A stretch of DNA of 22,733 nucleotides from a virus. Shown piece after piece: positions 8,783 to 22,696 of the stretch. Each line of letters starts with the position of its first letter. The stretch's first letter is position 1. The DNA is taken from positions 1 through 22,733 of the IMG/VR virus record IMGVR_UViG_3300029787_000011; one strand, given 5' to 3'. A program made the position numbers and the translations under genes. Under the pieces are notes generated by a model. That model was not told where the DNA came from. It made no database searches and saw only the letters and a list, made by a program, of their open reading frames with translations.

Positions 8783-9211
8783 CTAGAACCCATTCTTAAA
8801 TTTTTCCCAGTCTATTGCATTCTTGATTTGAAAATTACGATTGTTAATCATTCTCAATACACCATCCAAATAAGTTAAACACTGATCTACATACTCAATT
8901 TTATATTGCAACTTTCTCACCTCATCGTCACCTTCTATAAACATATTGACTTCTTCTTTGGTAGTCAACTTATAATCAAAAGGCAATTCTTTATACACAG
9001 TTGATGGTGCTTTACCTTTATAGTATATCCATTTCTCTCTAACAATTCTTTTCATCTCAATCTCACGTTCTTTCTTCATTAGTCCAAACGTGGTGTATAG
9101 TTCCATATATCGCATATGGAGTTGTGGAATTTTTGTGGATTCTTCGCAGTAAAGATCGTTATCAATTACGGAATCCTTCTTCCACATCTCCTGTATCTGT
9201 TCTAGATTCAT
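8783..9211 (-). CDS. uvsY: UvsY recombination mediator
   Basis: UvsY loads the UvsX recombinase onto gp32-coated single-stranded DNA. This version has 142 aa against 137 in T4. The N-terminus MNLEQIQEMWKKD aligns with T4 MRLEDLQEELKKD, and the C-terminal LDGVLRMINNRNFQIKN aligns with the T4 GALDAIKSRGFAIKH region. The frame extends upstream to a TTG at 9217, but the ATG at 9211 gives the T4-like N-terminus and is chosen. The upstream 178-aa gene overlaps its first 50 bases. It is followed by uvsW, the usual cyanomyovirus neighbour. Confidence 0.9.
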   Translation of the reverse strand: MNLEQIQEMWKKDSVIDNDLYCEESTKIPQLHMRYMELYTTFGLMKKEREIEMKRIVREKWIYYKGKAPSTVYKELPFDYKLTTKEEVNMFIEGDDEVRKLQYKIEYVDQCLTYLDGVLRMINNRNFQIKNAIDWEKFKNGF

Positions 9212-9698
9212 TATCAATCCAAGGGTCTGGTATTATACTCCCTGATCCTTCGTTTCCTTGAAGAAATCTTGGAGACTGCTTTGGCAGTTCACTGTTTTTT
9301 CGTTCTTGGGTCTGATCCCTTTCATCTTTTCGTAGTCGCTGTGCATCGCTCCTAGTAACCATGCCTGTGCTAGTTGCTTCGGACCTTCTTTCAACAACTG
9401 GATTTGAAATTTCGATAGACCAGCCTTCATCTCCAAGTACTCCAGTCTCCAAGATGTTTGGTCTTCTAATTGGTTCATTTCTGTCCCACTCTTTTACTAA
9501 TTGGTCAGCTTGTGTGTCAACTGATCGCATTGTATTTTCTATTTTAGCATAGATCCACTTTTTTTTCAACCACTCTAGCAAACCAAGTGCTAGATGCCTA
9601 ACGAAAGGGTTCTTGAATTTCTTCTTTACCCATCGCTCTGCCTTGTGATACCAAGGATCTACACCTTTACCAAAGGTTTTTTCAAAGGAGAATAGCAC
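9162..9698 (-). CDS. Unknown protein, 178 aa, basic N-terminus and low-complexity tail
   Basis: The first ~70 residues are strongly basic and aromatic with an amphipathic helix (WVKKKFKNPFVRHLALG, then WLKKKWIYAK). The rest is polar and disordered-looking, rich in Arg, Glu, Ser and Thr. The start is a GTG at 9698, overlapping the end of the 51-aa gene, with a weak AAAGGG upstream. The C-terminal 50 bases overlap uvsY. I do not recognise it. A virion or DNA-associated role is possible from the basic head, but that is a guess. Third-position AT bias supports this frame over a competing 81-codon frame inside it. Confidence 0.7.
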   Translation of the reverse strand: MLFSFEKTFGKGVDPWYHKAERWVKKKFKNPFVRHLALGLLEWLKKKWIYAKIENTMRSVDTQADQLVKEWDRNEPIRRPNILETGVLGDEGWSIEISNPVVERRSEATSTGMVTRSDAQRLRKDERDQTQERKNSELPKQSPRFLQGNEGSGSIIPDPWIDNESRTDTGDVEEGFRN

Positions 9699-10392: not shown

Positions 10393-10983
10393 TTATCCGT
10401 TAATGTTTTCTAACCATGATGTAGCAATATATTTTTCACCTGATAATGGAGGATTACCTCTATGAGTATGCGTAAACCCTGCTGGCCAAAGTAATACTTG
10501 TCCTTTTTTAGGTTTAAAACGTTTAGAAAGGTAGAGAAATTCTGTTTCTCCTCCTTCAAAACCTTCGTTGAGATACATCATAGTTGCTAACAATCTACGA
10601 TTAGTTCCCATAGAACCATTCTCAGCATGCCATGAATGATAACCGTTTTGTGGTGTAGTCTTTTGTACATTCAAATATACTTGTTGGTATCTAAATCCCA
10701 ATAGACTTTCATACTTGTCAATGTATAATTCTAAACACTCACCGCAAATATCATTGTATTGTTTCATCCATTGGTATCCGCAAGAATGATCCAATATAAA
10801 ATCTTCCGTAGCAAGACACTCGTCTTTACGTTGATTTGCTCTACGTTCTTTACCAAAGATACCTTTGCGATTAAACGTAGCACCACACTTCTTTTGATAT
10901 TCCCAATAATCTATCAATGGTTGAGTATTGAATTTAGTATCAAAGATACCAATAAAATCATCAAACCTTACATCATCTATCAT
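10393..10983 (-). CDS. 2-oxoglutarate/Fe(II)-dependent oxygenase (prolyl-4-hydroxylase-like)
   Basis: This is a 196-aa double-stranded beta-helix dioxygenase. The metal-binding triad appears as H119-x-E121 (in YHSWHAEN) and H174 (in FTHTHRGNPP), with K184 ten residues later, as expected for the residue that binds the 2-oxoglutarate C5 carboxylate. The middle MMYLNEGFEGGETEFL and GQVLLWPAGF blocks are typical of P4H-like enzymes. The first motif has Glu where most P4H family members have Asp. Such enzymes are common in cyanophages, with substrates mostly unknown. A late-type motif (ACTAAATA) sits about 25 bases upstream, and the next gene encodes a structural protein, so a virion-protein substrate is possible but unproven. 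Confidence 0.85.
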   Translation of the reverse strand: MIDDVRFDDFIGIFDTKFNTQPLIDYWEYQKKCGATFNRKGIFGKERRANQRKDECLATEDFILDHSCGYQWMKQYNDICGECLELYIDKYESLLGFRYQQVYLNVQKTTPQNGYHSWHAENGSMGTNRRLLATMMYLNEGFEGGETEFLYLSKRFKPKKGQVLLWPAGFTHTHRGNPPLSGEKYIATSWLENING

Positions 10984-11005
10984 AATTAAGTATACTATAC
11001 GTTTA

Positions 11006-11013
11006 TATTTAGT
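11006..11013 (-). promoter_or_regulatory. Late-promoter-like motif ACTAAATA before oxygenase gene
   Basis: The minus strand reads ACTAAATA, six of eight matches to the T4 late promoter TATAAATA, 23 bases upstream of the oxygenase ATG and just below a terminator. The 12-mer ACTAAATATAAA is shared exactly with the motif upstream of gp19, which supports it as a variant late promoter. Confidence 0.5.
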
Positions 11014-11016
11014 GAC

Positions 11017-11042
11017 AAAAAAAAGGTGCCTATCCAGACACC
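11017..11042 (-). terminator. Intrinsic terminator after the 394-aa gene
   Basis: The transcript would form GGTGTC-TGGATA-GGCACC (six pairs, one G-U) followed directly by eight U residues. It lies about 70 bases past the 394-aa gene stop and insulates that gene from the oxygenase gene. A purine-rich tract (GAAAAAGGGGAAAGGGG) runs into the stem. Confidence 0.85.
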
Positions 11043-11111
11043 CCTTTCCCCTTTTTCACACGTGTAATATTATTTATTACATATGTAGCAAGGATTACAT
11101 TAAGAAAACCT

Positions 11112-12296
11112 TTAAATAAATGGTTGTAAAAAAGGTTCTGTCTCTCCTTGGATTTGAGGGTAGAACCAAATCTCAAAGTTAAGATCAGATATTACTTTTT
11201 CTTCAAAGACACCTGGTTTTAACTTTTCATATACTGGACGGTATGCACTGTCTCTTTTTAATTCCCACCTATCTTTCAAAGTAGTCATTAAATTTTTACG
11301 TGCGGTAGCTATACCAATTGAGTTTTCTGAGTCTTTTTCATTGAACATCATAATCTTTAAGGTCTTATTAGATCCCTTTTCTAGATTTTGATTTTCTTTT
11401 CTAACAGCAGCAGCAAGAATTTCTTCAGCAGTAGCATTTGTAATGTTGGTCGCTTTGTTATAAGTCCTCATAGAAAAGAATGATTCGTCGTCTTCTGTGT
11501 TGTCTCTACCCCACTCATCATTTTTGTTCATGAAATTTACAACTTGATCTTTAAGACCTTGATTGTTAATCGCTTGCAAATGACCAACTCCACTAACATC
11601 TTCAATATCTTGCTTGATTCTAGTGACTATGTTCTTAATGAATGATTCGTTCCAATTATAACGAACGTATACACCCATAGATTTCAAAATATCTTTGATA
11701 GTTTGATCATTTGTAAGAGTTCCTTTCCCTAGAATCTTCTCTTCAGTATGAATGATATACCGTGTAAGACTAATAAAGTTGTGATCTTTAGTGTCTGCAG
11801 GAACAGGACTACAAACATTACCCCACATACCTGCTATTAGAAGAATAGTTTCTGTAGTAAAACTATTGACAATATCATTAGGGTCGTTTGTCCAAACTCT
11901 TTCATACTCAGCACCATAGACGCATGGAATATCCTTACGATGTATTGTTATGAGTTCAAGTAGATCCTTTAATGTGTGTCTTCTGTCAAAGTTAATTTTT
12001 CGACCTTCATAATCAACATAAGGTATTGCCCATGATGTTGATAACCATCCTAACTTAAGTAATGCCATGAGGGAAACTAATTTATCACTAAGAAAACCTG
12101 ATCTTTTTGATGTAAGAATACCTCTCATTATATTGTTTAATGCTTTGAAATCAAATGGATCTACTAAATGTACTCCATTTGTTCTATCTGGTTTTTGTAC
12201 TAATTTTAAATATGGAAATTTTTGAAACTGATCATCTTCTGGATAAGTTAATCTCCATTCATCAAGGGATATTTTATCCCAAGGTATGTAACGCAT
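11112..12296 (-). CDS. Unknown protein, 394 aa, possible ParB/sulfiredoxin-like region
   Basis: I do not recognise this protein as a T4 core gene. Residues about 70-127 have a pattern seen in ParB/sulfiredoxin-type domains: a helix (DKLVSLMALLKLGWLS), strands around IPYVDYEGRKINF, then DRRHTLKDLLEL in the place of the usual D-G-R-H-R-L, then KDIPCVYG. The C-terminal half is helical and charged with no clear domain. It starts at an ATG with an excellent AGGAGG Shine-Dalgarno six bases upstream, unlike its late-gene neighbours. It has its own near-consensus sigma-70 promoter and lies between two strong terminators, so it is an independent transcription unit inserted between gp23 and the tail genes. 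Early expression and a host-directed or DNA-associated role are inferences. Confidence 0.85.
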   Translation of the reverse strand: MRYIPWDKISLDEWRLTYPEDDQFQKFPYLKLVQKPDRTNGVHLVDPFDFKALNNIMRGILTSKRSGFLSDKLVSLMALLKLGWLSTSWAIPYVDYEGRKINFDRRHTLKDLLELITIHRKDIPCVYGAEYERVWTNDPNDIVNSFTTETILLIAGMWGNVCSPVPADTKDHNFISLTRYIIHTEEKILGKGTLTNDQTIKDILKSMGVYVRYNWNESFIKNIVTRIKQDIEDVSGVGHLQAINNQGLKDQVVNFMNKNDEWGRDNTEDDESFFSMRTYNKATNITNATAEEILAAAVRKENQNLEKGSNKTLKIMMFNEKDSENSIGIATARKNLMTTLKDRWELKRDSAYRPVYEKLKPGVFEEKVISDLNFEIWFYPQIQGETEPFLQPFI

Positions 12297-12302
12297 AAGT
12301 TG

Positions 12303-12308
12303 CCTCCT
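12303..12308 (-). promoter_or_regulatory. Strong Shine-Dalgarno AGGAGG of the 394-aa gene
   Basis: The minus strand reads AGGAGG, six bases (CAACTT) before the ATG at 12296. It is the most consensus-like ribosome binding site in the window and fixes the start of the gene. Confidence 0.8.
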
Positions 12309-12318
12309 GTAAATTAAA

Positions 12319-12338
12319 AACGGATCACGATGTCCGTT
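12319..12338 (-). promoter_or_regulatory. Leader hairpin at the predicted 5' end of the 394-aa gene mRNA
   Basis: The transcript would form AACGGA-CATCGTGA-TCCGTT, a six-pair stem with an eight-base loop, beginning at or within a base or two of the expected transcription start. It continues into UUU AAUUU, so it resembles a weak intrinsic terminator or attenuator, or it may protect the 5' end of the mRNA. Confidence 0.5.
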
Positions 12339-12344
12339 AGTTAT

Positions 12345-12373
12345 ACTATACCATGCGTTTTTCTACTTGTCAA
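12345..12373 (-). promoter_or_regulatory. Near-consensus sigma-70 promoter for the 394-aa gene
   Basis: The minus strand has TTGACA (12373-12368), a 17-bp spacer, and TATAGT (12350-12345), 11 of 12 consensus matches. The start point would be near 12338. It lies immediately past the gp23 terminator and abuts a 9-bp inverted repeat on its upstream side. It is unlike the TATAAATA promoters of the surrounding virion genes. Confidence 0.8.
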
Positions 12374-12398
12374 GTCACCAAAAAAAATATTTGGTGAC
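12374..12398. repeat. 9-bp inverted repeat abutting the -35 box (candidate operator)
   Basis: The arms gtcaccaaa (12374-12382) and tttggtgac (12390-12398) are perfect and separated by an AT-only heptamer. The repeat touches the TTGACA box of the sigma-70 promoter on one side and the U-run of the gp23 terminator on the other. It may be an operator or activator site, or a second RNA hairpin backing up the terminator. Confidence 0.6.
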
Positions 12399-12423
12399 AA
12401 AAAAAGAGACCCGAAGGTCTCTT
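12399..12423 (-). terminator. Intrinsic terminator after gp23
   Basis: The transcript forms AAGAGACC-UUCG-GGUCUCUU, an eight-pair stem capped by the very stable UUCG tetraloop and followed by a run of U (seven A on the plus strand, 12399-12405). It starts about 22 bases after the gp23 stop and should end the late capsid transcript. Confidence 0.95.
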
Positions 12424-12445: not shown

Positions 12446-13834
12446 TTACATGAGGTTAGCAACCTGTACTCTTCTGTAGTACTTGTTAGCATTAGCTGTA
12501 AGTGCACCAGAACCTTGTGTAAGACCACCTGAGAATGGGTTTGAAACCATACCATAACGTGTCTTAAACCCGATTTTTGGTTGGAAGGTGTTAGGGTTGA
12601 TTGCTCTAACTTGCTGTAATGGAACGTAAGGACAGTAGAATAATCCTGCGTCATAAGGTGATGTACCTTTGTATCCTGCAACGTAGAAGTGCTTATCACT
12701 TACGTTTGAAGAATATGGGTCAACATAAACCTTGATACGTCCGTTTAGAGTACCAACAAGTGTAGATGAAGTATCGTCTACTCCTGTTAATGCACTGTTG
12801 CCTTGAAGACCAGGTGCATAGTCAAGTACTCCAGCCATTCCAAGAGCAGATGCAACGTCTGCAGAGCAGATCAAAATGTTGCCCTTCCCGCGTCTTGTCT
12901 CTTGACCGATAGCGTTAGCGTCTCTTTCTATCTGGAATAATAGTCCCTTGAATTTCTCAACTGACCATCTACCATTAGAGTCAACGTCTAAGTCAAATAT
13001 ACCGTCTGTAGCAGTGTTAGCGATAGCACCTTTAACAGCATTTACATAGATTGTTCTGACAACTTCTCTGTTGATTTCAGCAAGTATCTCTGTTGAGAGA
13101 ATGTTTGCTAATTCAGATTCAGCGTCCAATCCGTGAATTGCTTTAAGGTCTTGAGCCATCTCTATGCTGTACTCTGCCTTTAATGCTCTAGATTTAGCAG
13201 TAACAGTTACCTTCTCAATGGAGAAACCCATTTCTCTGAAGGCTGTTGAAGCAGATGAATCATCTAATGCTTCAGCAGTTGCTGTTGCCATACCTGTAGC
13301 ATCGCCAGTTACCTCGTAAGTTCCTGGTGAACTATCGTTAAGTAATCCTGGGTTTGCACCTTCAGCATCGTTTACAGCAGAAGAAGAAGCAGTAGGATCG
13401 TAGTTTGATAATCCTGTACCAGCTCCACCTGTGAAACCTGCGTTAGGTTCGTTGAATAGTGCTTCTCTGAAGTCACTGTTTGCAGGTCTACGCTCAGAAC
13501 CGTAGAATGATCTCATTGCAAAGATAAGACCTGTAGGACCTGTCATTGGTTGAACACCTGCAACGTCATATGCAATGAGTTGTGGCATTGAACGTCTGAT
13601 TAGACTGATCAAAACTGGGTCGAAACCTGCAACAGGACCAGTAGCGGTATCGCCTGTGGTATAACCTGTAGTCTGAAGAGTCTCGTTAAGAACTTGACCT
13701 TCTTCTTTGATTGCGTTTTCTTGGTTTTCTAAGAGTTGTGCGACTACGCCCTTTTTATATGAATCTTTGATTTCAGGAACTGATTCGTGATTCAATACGG
13801 GTGCCCACTTCTCTTGGAGATGTTGTAAAGACAT
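12446..13834 (-). CDS. 23: Major capsid protein gp23
   Basis: This is the main shell protein of the prohead, 462 aa (T4: 521). The block RRSMPQLIAYDVAGVQPM, then PTGLIFAMR and FYGSE, matches T4 gp23 (RRAIPNLIAFDICGVQPM, PTGQVFALR). The extreme C-terminal KYYRRVQVANLM is typical of the family. The N-terminal ~50 residues are a helical propeptide. Candidate gp21 cleavage sites of the (I/L)-x-E type are LLE (ending E36), IKE (E44) and LNE (E51), and the last best fits the T4 position. The start is at 13834 with AAGGA about ten bases upstream. No clear TATAAATA precedes it, so it is likely co-transcribed with gp22 or driven from a variant motif at 13872-13879. Confidence 0.96.
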   Translation of the reverse strand: MSLQHLQEKWAPVLNHESVPEIKDSYKKGVVAQLLENQENAIKEEGQVLNETLQTTGYTTGDTATGPVAGFDPVLISLIRRSMPQLIAYDVAGVQPMTGPTGLIFAMRSFYGSERRPANSDFREALFNEPNAGFTGGAGTGLSNYDPTASSSAVNDAEGANPGLLNDSSPGTYEVTGDATGMATATAEALDDSSASTAFREMGFSIEKVTVTAKSRALKAEYSIEMAQDLKAIHGLDAESELANILSTEILAEINREVVRTIYVNAVKGAIANTATDGIFDLDVDSNGRWSVEKFKGLLFQIERDANAIGQETRRGKGNILICSADVASALGMAGVLDYAPGLQGNSALTGVDDTSSTLVGTLNGRIKVYVDPYSSNVSDKHFYVAGYKGTSPYDAGLFYCPYVPLQQVRAINPNTFQPKIGFKTRYGMVSNPFSGGLTQGSGALTANANKYYRRVQVANLM

Positions 13835-20574: not shown

Positions 20575-22227
20575 TCACCTATACTCCCACATATATGATT
20601 TGTCTCCATATTCCGCGACCTGCCAAACATCCCCCTGAGCATCTTTAAACTGATCTTCTTCTAATCCATCAGTCACAAATCCAAAAGGTGCCATGTCTTG
20701 TTCTATCTGGTCTCTTTGATCTTCATATATTCTTTGCCTAACGTCATTGTCATGCATTTCTTTAAAGTATGGTTGCATTGCCATCCATGAGAATATAACC
20801 AGACACATTGCCAGATCATCGTTACATCCATCCTCCGCTTGGAATGATTGTCCTTTTTGAATAAAGGTTGTCAATTCCGCAATAGTATCATAATCTTCAA
20901 CAAGTAATTTATCATCTTCTATCAATGCCTTAAGGTTAGAACATCCAACTTGTTTAACTGCAGTAGACATTTTTATACCTAATTGTGTTTTCTTACCAGA
21001 GAATCCTTGACCAAGTTGCTGACCTGCTCTACCTCTCATGGATACCATTAGTAGATTCTCATACTCCATATCATATTGTATAATATCTGCAACCTGTCCA
21101 CCTATATCATTTACCTCACAAAGAAGGTATGCATTGTTATAGTTTGTGGCAACATCTACAATGACATTTGGAAAAACTATAGGTTTAATTTGATTGTTCT
21201 TATATCTTGCTACTACTTTATATGGAATGGTGGTTGTGTCCATTACAACAAATGCTGAGTAATCGTTTCCAACTCCTCTCGATACATCAATTGTAATTAT
21301 ATAATTGTGTTCTGCTATGACATTTTCATATACTGCAAGACCCTTGTTCTGATTAATAGGATCTTTGTATGGCATCATTCTTAATTTACTTGGTGTGATT
21401 AAGGTATCAACAGATCCTAAGAACTCACATTCAAACTCAACTCTGAACTGTGCCTCAGATGTATTCTCTATAGTTTGCTGTTTCCATTTATCATCCCTAC
21501 CAGGTACTTGTGACCAGTGTACTTCGGTTGCGACATAGTTATTTGCATTTCTTTCTGCATCATGCCACAACTTATAGAATTGATTCATCCCATGAGGAGT
21601 GGAGATAATAATAACTTTAGTTGACTTACCAGATGAAATTGTAGGATACACACTAGCAAAAAACTGTTCAGCAATATGATTCGGAACGAAAGCGAATTCG
21701 TCCAAAAATATAATGTTAAAGGACATACCGCGAACAGCACTAGCAGAAGTAGAAGAAGCGAGGATTTTACTTCCGTTTTCCAATTCGAGTGACCCTTTGT
21801 TCCATCCGACAATACCCTGTTGCATCCATTTAGGGAGATTCTCATAAGATAGTTGGAGGCGGCCCAACATCTCTCTTGCAGTTGGTGCTTTGTTTGCGAG
21901 GATTGCGACATTTACATTAGCATTGAATAGTACATACCATAGTAGATATGCTGTAACGATAGTTGACTTACCAGACTGACGAGGTAGTTTACATATATTA
22001 AATCTATGTTCATGAAACTTCTCTACCATTCCTTCTTGGAAATCATACATGTCAAAAGGTATAACACCTTCATCAAGAGATACAATTTTAATGTACTGTC
22101 TAATAAAATAGACAGGATCTTGAGCACACTTCATGTACTCAGCAACTTGTTTCTTAGTAAACTCAGTATTTACGTTTGCTTTTTTAAGATTAGGATTACC
22201 TAAGTATATCTCTTGTTTGACACTCAT
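20575..22227 (-). CDS. 17: Terminase large subunit gp17
   Basis: This is the DNA packaging motor ATPase and headful nuclease, 550 aa (T4: 610). The ATPase domain has Walker A PRQSGKST at 82-89, Walker B IIFLDE at 172-177 and the coupling motif STP at 209-211. The RNase H-like nuclease domain has TIDVSRG with D314, CEVND with E371, and NDDLAM with D470 or D471, matching the three acidic metal ligands of T4 gp17. The ATG at 22227 overlaps the stop of the Nfu-like gene (ATGA). The small terminase gp16 is not in the window. Confidence 0.96.
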   Translation of the reverse strand: MSVKQEIYLGNPNLKKANVNTEFTKKQVAEYMKCAQDPVYFIRQYIKIVSLDEGVIPFDMYDFQEGMVEKFHEHRFNICKLPRQSGKSTIVTAYLLWYVLFNANVNVAILANKAPTAREMLGRLQLSYENLPKWMQQGIVGWNKGSLELENGSKILASSTSASAVRGMSFNIIFLDEFAFVPNHIAEQFFASVYPTISSGKSTKVIIISTPHGMNQFYKLWHDAERNANNYVATEVHWSQVPGRDDKWKQQTIENTSEAQFRVEFECEFLGSVDTLITPSKLRMMPYKDPINQNKGLAVYENVIAEHNYIITIDVSRGVGNDYSAFVVMDTTTIPYKVVARYKNNQIKPIVFPNVIVDVATNYNNAYLLCEVNDIGGQVADIIQYDMEYENLLMVSMRGRAGQQLGQGFSGKKTQLGIKMSTAVKQVGCSNLKALIEDDKLLVEDYDTIAELTTFIQKGQSFQAEDGCNDDLAMCLVIFSWMAMQPYFKEMHDNDVRQRIYEDQRDQIEQDMAPFGFVTDGLEEDQFKDAQGDVWQVAEYGDKSYMWEYR

Positions 22228-22469
22228 ACTGCTAATACCTGTGTGACCTCAGGAAATACTTCCTTGACTCTACGTTCAATACCCAACTGTAAAGTTTGGG
22301 CACTCATAGCACAACCTGTGCATGCTCCACCCATCCTAACCATAACAATAGGACCTTCCTTTAAGTAATCTATACCGATATACTCAAGGTATCCTCCATC
22401 AGATTCTATGTATGGACGTAATTCGTCAAGAACATTATTAACGTTCAAGTCGTTTAACTCTTCAGTCAT
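22224..22469 (-). CDS. Nfu-type Fe-S cluster scaffold domain protein
   Basis: This is a single NifU C-terminal (Nfu) domain of 81 aa. It shows the family's VLDELRPYIESDGGYLEYI opening, VMVRMGGACTGCAMSAQTL with the CxxC that holds a 4Fe-4S cluster between two subunits (C50 and C53 from the chosen start), and a helical end. Nfu proteins receive and deliver Fe-S clusters to target enzymes such as photosystem I in cyanobacteria. The frame extends to a TTG at 22496, but the ATG at 22469, six bases past the upstream stop, is more likely. There is no fused A-type domain. The gene is coupled by ATGA to the terminase. Confidence 0.85.
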   Translation of the reverse strand: MTEELNDLNVNNVLDELRPYIESDGGYLEYIGIDYLKEGPIVMVRMGGACTGCAMSAQTLQLGIERRVKEVFPEVTQVLAV

Positions 22470-22474
22470 TTTAT

Positions 22475-22696
22475 TTAAAAGTGTTTGTTCTCCCAACCTT
22501 GTCCTAACCAGTTATCTCTTTTAAATGCAGGAATAACTTCGTTGACTAGGAACTTACGATTTTGTTCTGCAATCTTCAATGATTTAGTTTCAAGATTAGA
22601 TACTCTTGACTCAAGTGAAGATGCAAACCACACAGCACCACCTAACTGAACAAGTAAGAAGGATATTGCTGCGAATGGAATTTTAAAATCTTTCAT
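22475..22696 (-). CDS. Small single-pass membrane protein, 73 aa
   Basis: A hydrophobic segment of about 20 residues (IPFAAISFLLVQLGGAVWFA, 6-25) is followed by a charged, coiled-coil-like stretch (SRVSNLETKSLKIAEQNRK) and a tail ending in WENKHF. The positive N-terminus suggests N-in topology. GAGGG lies about ten bases before the ATG at 22696. The size and one TM fit many small cyanophage proteins near the terminase. A lysis accessory or holin-like role is possible, but nothing in the sequence decides it. I can assign nothing to the 37 bases upstream except that two frames reach stops there. Confidence 0.75.
   Translation of the reverse strand: MKDFKIPFAAISFLLVQLGGAVWFASSLESRVSNLETKSLKIAEQNRKFLVNEVIPAFKRDNWLGQGWENKHF

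Follow-up and report, generated by a model that had tools for sequence, protein, structure and literature searches.

Why should a gene that appears equipped for early expression stand directly behind the gene for the major capsid protein, among late virion genes? The question is posed by gene X, which lies in positions 1–22,733 of the record IMGVR_UViG_3300029787_000011, itself 92,438 bases long (we call this whole analysed stretch of 22,733 nucleotides the window). The window comes from a T4-like cyanomyovirus near the Prochlorococcus phages P-SSM4 and P-RSM3, and its DNA identity to P-SSM4 around the X unit is 88%. All of its genes lie on the minus strand, in the order gp17, gp18, gp19, gp20, gp21, gp22, gp23, X, a 2OG-Fe(II) oxygenase gene, gp3, a gene without a named function, uvsY, uvsW, a second such gene, gp55 (the late sigma factor), gp47 and gp46; no tRNA or Rfam match was found within it. 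X is probably a swappable helper gene that is switched on early, because it has a host-type promoter of its own and the slot that holds it is filled differently in relatives. More fully, we regard X as accessory cargo of a variable slot that would be transcribed early by the host sigma-70 polymerase, insulated from gp23 and refilled over evolution, a reading to which we assign a probability of about 0.77.

Layout of the X unit

The features, all on the minus strand, are as follows.

12446–13834, minus: gp23, major capsid protein, left neighbour of X
12404–12423, minus: intrinsic terminator of gp23, AAGAGACCTTCGGGTCTCTT plus T-run, 8 bp stem, z −4.1
12387–12405, minus: 19-nt direct repeat at the edge of the cargo, left copy, TTTTTTTGTCACCAAATAT; also in P-SSM4 and P-RSM3
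12374–12398, minus: perfect 9-bp inverted repeat, GTCACCAAA...TTTGGTGAC, −12.5 kcal/mol, z −5.6
12373–12368 and 12350–12345, minus: sigma-70 type promoter, TTGACA, 17 nt, TATAGT, 11/12 matches, extended −10 (TG)
12319–12338, minus: hairpin AACGGA/TCCGTT at the predicted 5′ end of the transcript, z −0.6 alone
12303–12308, minus: AGGAGG Shine-Dalgarno sequence, 6 nt from the ATG
11112–12296, minus: gene X, open reading frame of 394 amino acids, ATG at 12296, stop at 11112
11017–11047 (stem 11042–11025), minus: terminator 3′ of X, GGTGTCTGGATAGGCACC plus T-run, z −3.8
11005–11023, minus: right copy of the 19-nt direct repeat, TTTTTTTGTCACTAAATAT, comprising a T-run and the late-type CTAAATAT of the 2OG gene
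10393–10983, minus: 2OG-Fe(II) oxygenase, right neighbour of X

A preliminary description had drawn a terminator, inverted repeat, promoter, hairpin, AGGAGG, 394-residue gene and second terminator here, and each of these was recovered at or near its assigned position; the genes to the right, which it took for tail genes, are in fact the oxygenase gene and then gp3. The inverted repeat and both terminators form far more stable folds than shuffled sequence does. The gp23 terminator is unchanged in P-SSM4 and P-RSM3, and the inverted repeat, which sits between it and the −35 box and abuts the latter, is possibly an operator or an RNA hairpin; it is retained in P-SSM4, and because P-RSM3 carries indels that break the palindrome, its exact symmetry is arguably not vital. 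The hairpin at the 5′ end is weak when compared with shuffles, yet it is retained in P-SSM4 (as AACAGA/TCTGTT) with one compensatory pair. The unit had further been called private, which holds for the promoter, conserved in the orthologues, and for neither the AGGAGG, missing from both orthologue loci (P-SSM4 and P-RSM3), nor the 3′ terminator: the sequence between X and the 2OG gene, which contains this terminator, is also present in P-SSM3, where the cargo gene is unrelated, and the terminator therefore belongs to the locus.

The 19-nt repeat combines a terminator T-run with a CTAAATAT-like late motif, altered to CCAAATAT in the left copy, and in S-RIM8, S-RIM50 and S-H35 a single module of similar kind connects the gp23 terminator with the gene that follows. 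The two copies would fit, without proving, a duplication or an exchange at this module.

A host-type promoter in the virion block

The promoter of X is more than a chance match: the best promoter score of the intergenic region exceeds that of shuffled sequence with p=0.008 in the window and 0.001–0.002 in the orthologues, and P-SSM4 and P-RSM3 carry TTGACA-17-TATAAT, a 12/12 site, at the same place, which in P-SSM4 is 118863–118891. Such sites are scarce and strand-biased. Exact TTGACA-N16-18-TATAAT matches number 28 on the coding and 0 on the opposite strand of four related records (4, 7, 8 and 9 against 0 per record, counts that are not independent because the records are related). P-SSM4 has seven exact sites genome-wide, among them one at the slot and one at the gene for the late sigma factor gp55, and none between 57 and 118 kb; a cut-off of 11/12 adds a single coding-strand site in this phage, inside the gp7 coding sequence. 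At this looser cut-off the promoter of X is the sole coding-strand site from 12.4 to 77 kb in the record that contains the window, and no other good sigma-70 site lies between genes of the virion block.

The neighbours had been credited with promoters of a different sequence, and in the window the exact TATAAATA does precede g22, g20 and g18, but only these; the 2OG gene and g19 are preceded by CTAAATAT, and neither TATAAATA nor CTAAATA was found upstream of X. In cyanomyoviruses the late motif is NATAAATA, early genes are thought to be read by the unmodified host sigma-70 RNA polymerase, and a combination of early and late promoters has been proposed for middle genes (PMC2984593). If the early genes are read in this way, X would be produced as soon as infection begins, and it is on the sequence of its promoter that we infer an early timing. 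The composite of terminator and host sigma-70 promoter would insulate X from read-through out of gp23 and let the unmodified host enzyme transcribe it from the onset of infection, while the terminator at the 3′ end of the slot would limit read-through from X into the 2OG gene and gp3. The promoter could also work all through infection and not early alone.

Cargo of the gp23–gp3 slot

Comparison of the locus downstream of gp23 among relatives, which the preliminary description had proposed, indicates that the gp23–gp3 interval is a cargo slot, filled differently from phage to phage. P-SSM3, of the same genus, holds an unrelated 354-residue gene, PRAG_00023, with a different terminator and a different 12/12 promoter of its own, whose −35 box lies in the terminator loop. 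Elsewhere the slot contains gnd and zwf (P-RSM1), an HNH protein (Syn33), a carbamoyltransferase (ACG-2014d), a peptide deformylase (P-RSM6), a RimK-like gene (S-RIM32) or a glutaredoxin (ACG-2014a), and it is empty in S-RIM8 and S-RIM14; as annotated, S-RIM8, S-RIM14 and S-RIM50 also lack the 2OG gene between gp23 and gp3. Sigma-70 sites of 12/12 are found in the slots of P-SSM4, P-RSM3, P-SSM3 and MbCM1. The site in P-RSM1 scores 10/12 and is not significant (p=0.10), and the other genera sampled, with Syn33, S-RIM32, P-RSM6 and ACG-2014d among those whose slot genes lack a good site, have none there; many of them show TATAAATA or CTAAATA instead. An early promoter is therefore not always brought by the cargo.

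For the family of the P-SSM3 slot gene, cargo and promoter do appear to move together. A 12/12 promoter precedes the gene in all contigs long enough to include that region. At locus L012 a P-SSM3-type gene occupies the same slot in a distant phage, with 81% identity as against 37–63% for core genes, and at L013 it lies, its sigma-70 promoter kept, upstream of a DNA polymerase gene and a uvsX-like gene (both named by eye from the sequence). The gene is preceded by a leader of about 65 nt that hardly varies (L004 2925–3000, L009, L012 and L013), although promoters and neighbours differ between these phages; it is possibly a structured 5′ UTR or a small RNA.

Promoters nested in a terminator recur at gp23. 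A pattern search of the viral collection returned at least 120 stretches. In a sample of 82 sites, the −35 box is overlapped by a stem of 7 bp or longer in 57 (about 1% would be expected under the null), and gp23 immediately precedes 27. In two contigs, L139 (2901 and 4019, reverse strand) and L096, two such devices stand in tandem, and each leads a separate gene in the interval from gp23 to the 2OG gene. In both, the 334-residue phrog_2615 gene follows gp23 with a nested promoter, and it behaves like the P-SSM3-type cargo in occurring at other sites too; elsewhere this gene adjoins psbA-psbD (S-RIM8) or methyltransferase genes. Its distant members in Syn19, S-CAM4 and P-RSM4 (L194, L195 and L197) adjoin genes for a DNA methyltransferase or an R.RsaI endonuclease.

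The manA RNA (RF01745), already known from cyanophages (PMC2864571), starts a few bases past the nested sigma-70 promoter behind gp23. It directly follows the nested device in 7 of the 10 loci tested with Rfam; matches lie at L005 3037–3236 and L006 3012–3199, and further ones at L061, L066, L067, L079, L120, L137 and L139. The RNA is also present in P-RSM1 and MbCM1. Its occurrence behind the gp23 device in many cyanophage contigs makes it a recurrent part of the slot.

How does the slot relate to known systems? T4-like phages reportedly possess PeSL (promoter-early stem-loop) cassettes, a finding ascribed to Arbiol (2010) and Comeau (2014). The X slot would be a case of this composite terminator/early-promoter shuffling: a terminator stem-loop and an adjacent strong sigma-70-like promoter border variable, lineage-specific genes between core genes, and one module recurs with different cargo. 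Exchange by recombination may be reflected in the boundary direct repeats and in the P-SSM3-type cargo, which occurs together with its promoter in two different genome positions. We infer that the slot is refilled, most likely through homologous recombination at the recurrent terminator–promoter modules, similar to the PeSL mode of modular gene shuffling that PMC4503421 cites for T4-like phages. Unlike PeSL cassettes, the X slot is set within the virion block, after gp23, the X-bearing phages have terminator, inverted repeat and promoter in tandem, and the −35 box is nested in the terminator loop of P-SSM3 and of many contigs.

The preliminary description had also pictured X as moron-like early cargo in a late block, and the orthologues, the slot comparison, the scarcity of promoters and their strand bias bear this out. 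Like a moron, X is one additional gene that has a promoter of its own and a terminator on either side, absent from the site in close relatives (P-SSM3; S-RIM8 and S-RIM14); unlike one, it shares its 3′ terminator with the locus. Classic morons, moreover, were defined in temperate phages and are expressed from prophages, whereas P-SSM4-like phages we take to be lytic. The hyperplastic region between g15 and g18 of cyanophages (Millard 2009) likewise has accessory and metabolic genes, including zwf and gnd, inserted among structural genes, as PMC2984593 describes it; the present site differs from the region so described in lying between gp23 and gp3 and in the sigma-70 promoter that several lineages have at its 5′ border. 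The literature searched contained no description of the gp23–gp3 slot as a variable site, and within that literature it is a previously undescribed site for a known style of virus evolution.

Gene X and competing explanations

Full-length orthologues of X were found only in P-SSM4 (PSSM4_109, T4-GC 409) and P-RSM3 (CPQG_00185), at 69% identity. PSSM4_109 occupies the same site in the same promoter-led unit, and differs from X in its 31% amino-acid divergence, the missing AGGAGG and a perfect −10 box. Peptide-seed scans of viral collections added one fragment in a marine contig of the same species, and no further relative emerged from the viral and genome collections with these seeds, which miss distant relatives. 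X is fast-evolving (dN 0.22, dS 0.44, dN/dS about 0.49, against 0.05–0.13 for most core neighbours), a ratio that could instead reflect weak constraint; residues 271–300 and 361–394 are 90–100% identical, and parts of the protein are therefore constrained.

Searches of Pfam, PHROG, NCBIfam, PADLOC and PDB gave no match of note. The ParB- or sulfiredoxin-like region suggested earlier was not borne out: PF02195, a home-made ParB profile and hhalign all stayed at noise level, a genome search found no PF02195 match in related phages, and single-sequence AlphaFold2 models of X and of residues 30–170, built without an alignment, were uninformative (pLDDT 38 and 36). By eye, FDRRHTLK...IP resembles ParB-like motifs, a likeness that failed every sequence test and is not supported, in an alignment too shallow to exclude ParB. 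Homology of X to the P-SSM3 slot gene or to the phrog_2615 gene was likewise rejected, BLASTP, hhalign and shuffled Smith-Waterman scores being at noise level, and the letters SFF/NIT/EN..RK, common by eye to X and other slot genes, were dropped.

What X does can be guessed at, and our tentative preference, compatible with the cargo explanation, is that it specifically counters Prochlorococcus defence or takes over host transcription. We favour this because of the predicted early timing from an early-type promoter, the narrow lineage and the fast change of a protein with two conserved patches; on the other side, X has no homology to the known anti-defence families searched, and its PADLOC matches are noise only. 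Somewhat more doubtful is a broader proposal, in which the 3′ end of gp23 is a general port for early expression and X founds a new family of takeover or counter-defence proteins. Were it true, unrelated host-control genes would plug into the late block and be read from the first minutes, from a promoter that lies within or after the gp23 terminator, in many cases ahead of a manA RNA sensor.

It is improbable that X is a passenger and that the slot promoter works chiefly for the middle genes downstream of it (2OG, gp3, uvsY and uvsW). The position of uvsY and uvsW and the mixed early and late promoters proposed for middle genes (PMC2984593) speak for it, but a strong, conserved terminator follows X, the 2OG gene has its own CTAAATAT and gp55 its own 12/12 promoter. 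We place equally little trust in X as a selfish element that would mobilise the slot, for instance as a homing endonuclease or a nuclease of ParB fold: Syn33 does carry an HNH gene there, direct repeats do lie at both cargo ends and the ParB-like letters are those noted above, yet X matches no nuclease or ParB family and is confined to one narrow lineage, and the repeats resemble reused terminator/late-promoter modules. Least probable is a late virion-associated protein, for capsid decoration or ejection, made with gp23 while the sigma-70 site is secondary, since its proximity to gp23 and gp3 and the precedent of T4, whose ejected internal proteins act in the host, are set against the strong terminator after gp23, the lack of TATAAATA or CTAAATA upstream, the perfect sigma-70 promoter conserved in the orthologues, the unrelated genes (metabolic enzymes among them) in other slots, and a search for structural protein families that returned no match.

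On the cargo explanation, the slot would be a place in very abundant ocean viruses where genes ranging from carbon-metabolism enzymes to lineage-specific proteins are exchanged. Those that stand under a host-type promoter in several lineages would form a short list of candidates for early host manipulation, and more could be found by searching the gp23 terminator and the sequence behind it for a sigma-70 site.

Elsewhere in the window, genes for a ferredoxin-dependent bilin reductase (319–1008) and a NifU-like protein (22224–22496) were noted. The T4-GC410 gene (9162–9698) overlaps uvsY in a different frame and, compared with P-SSM4, shows a high dN/dS of 0.69 at a very low dS of 0.10.
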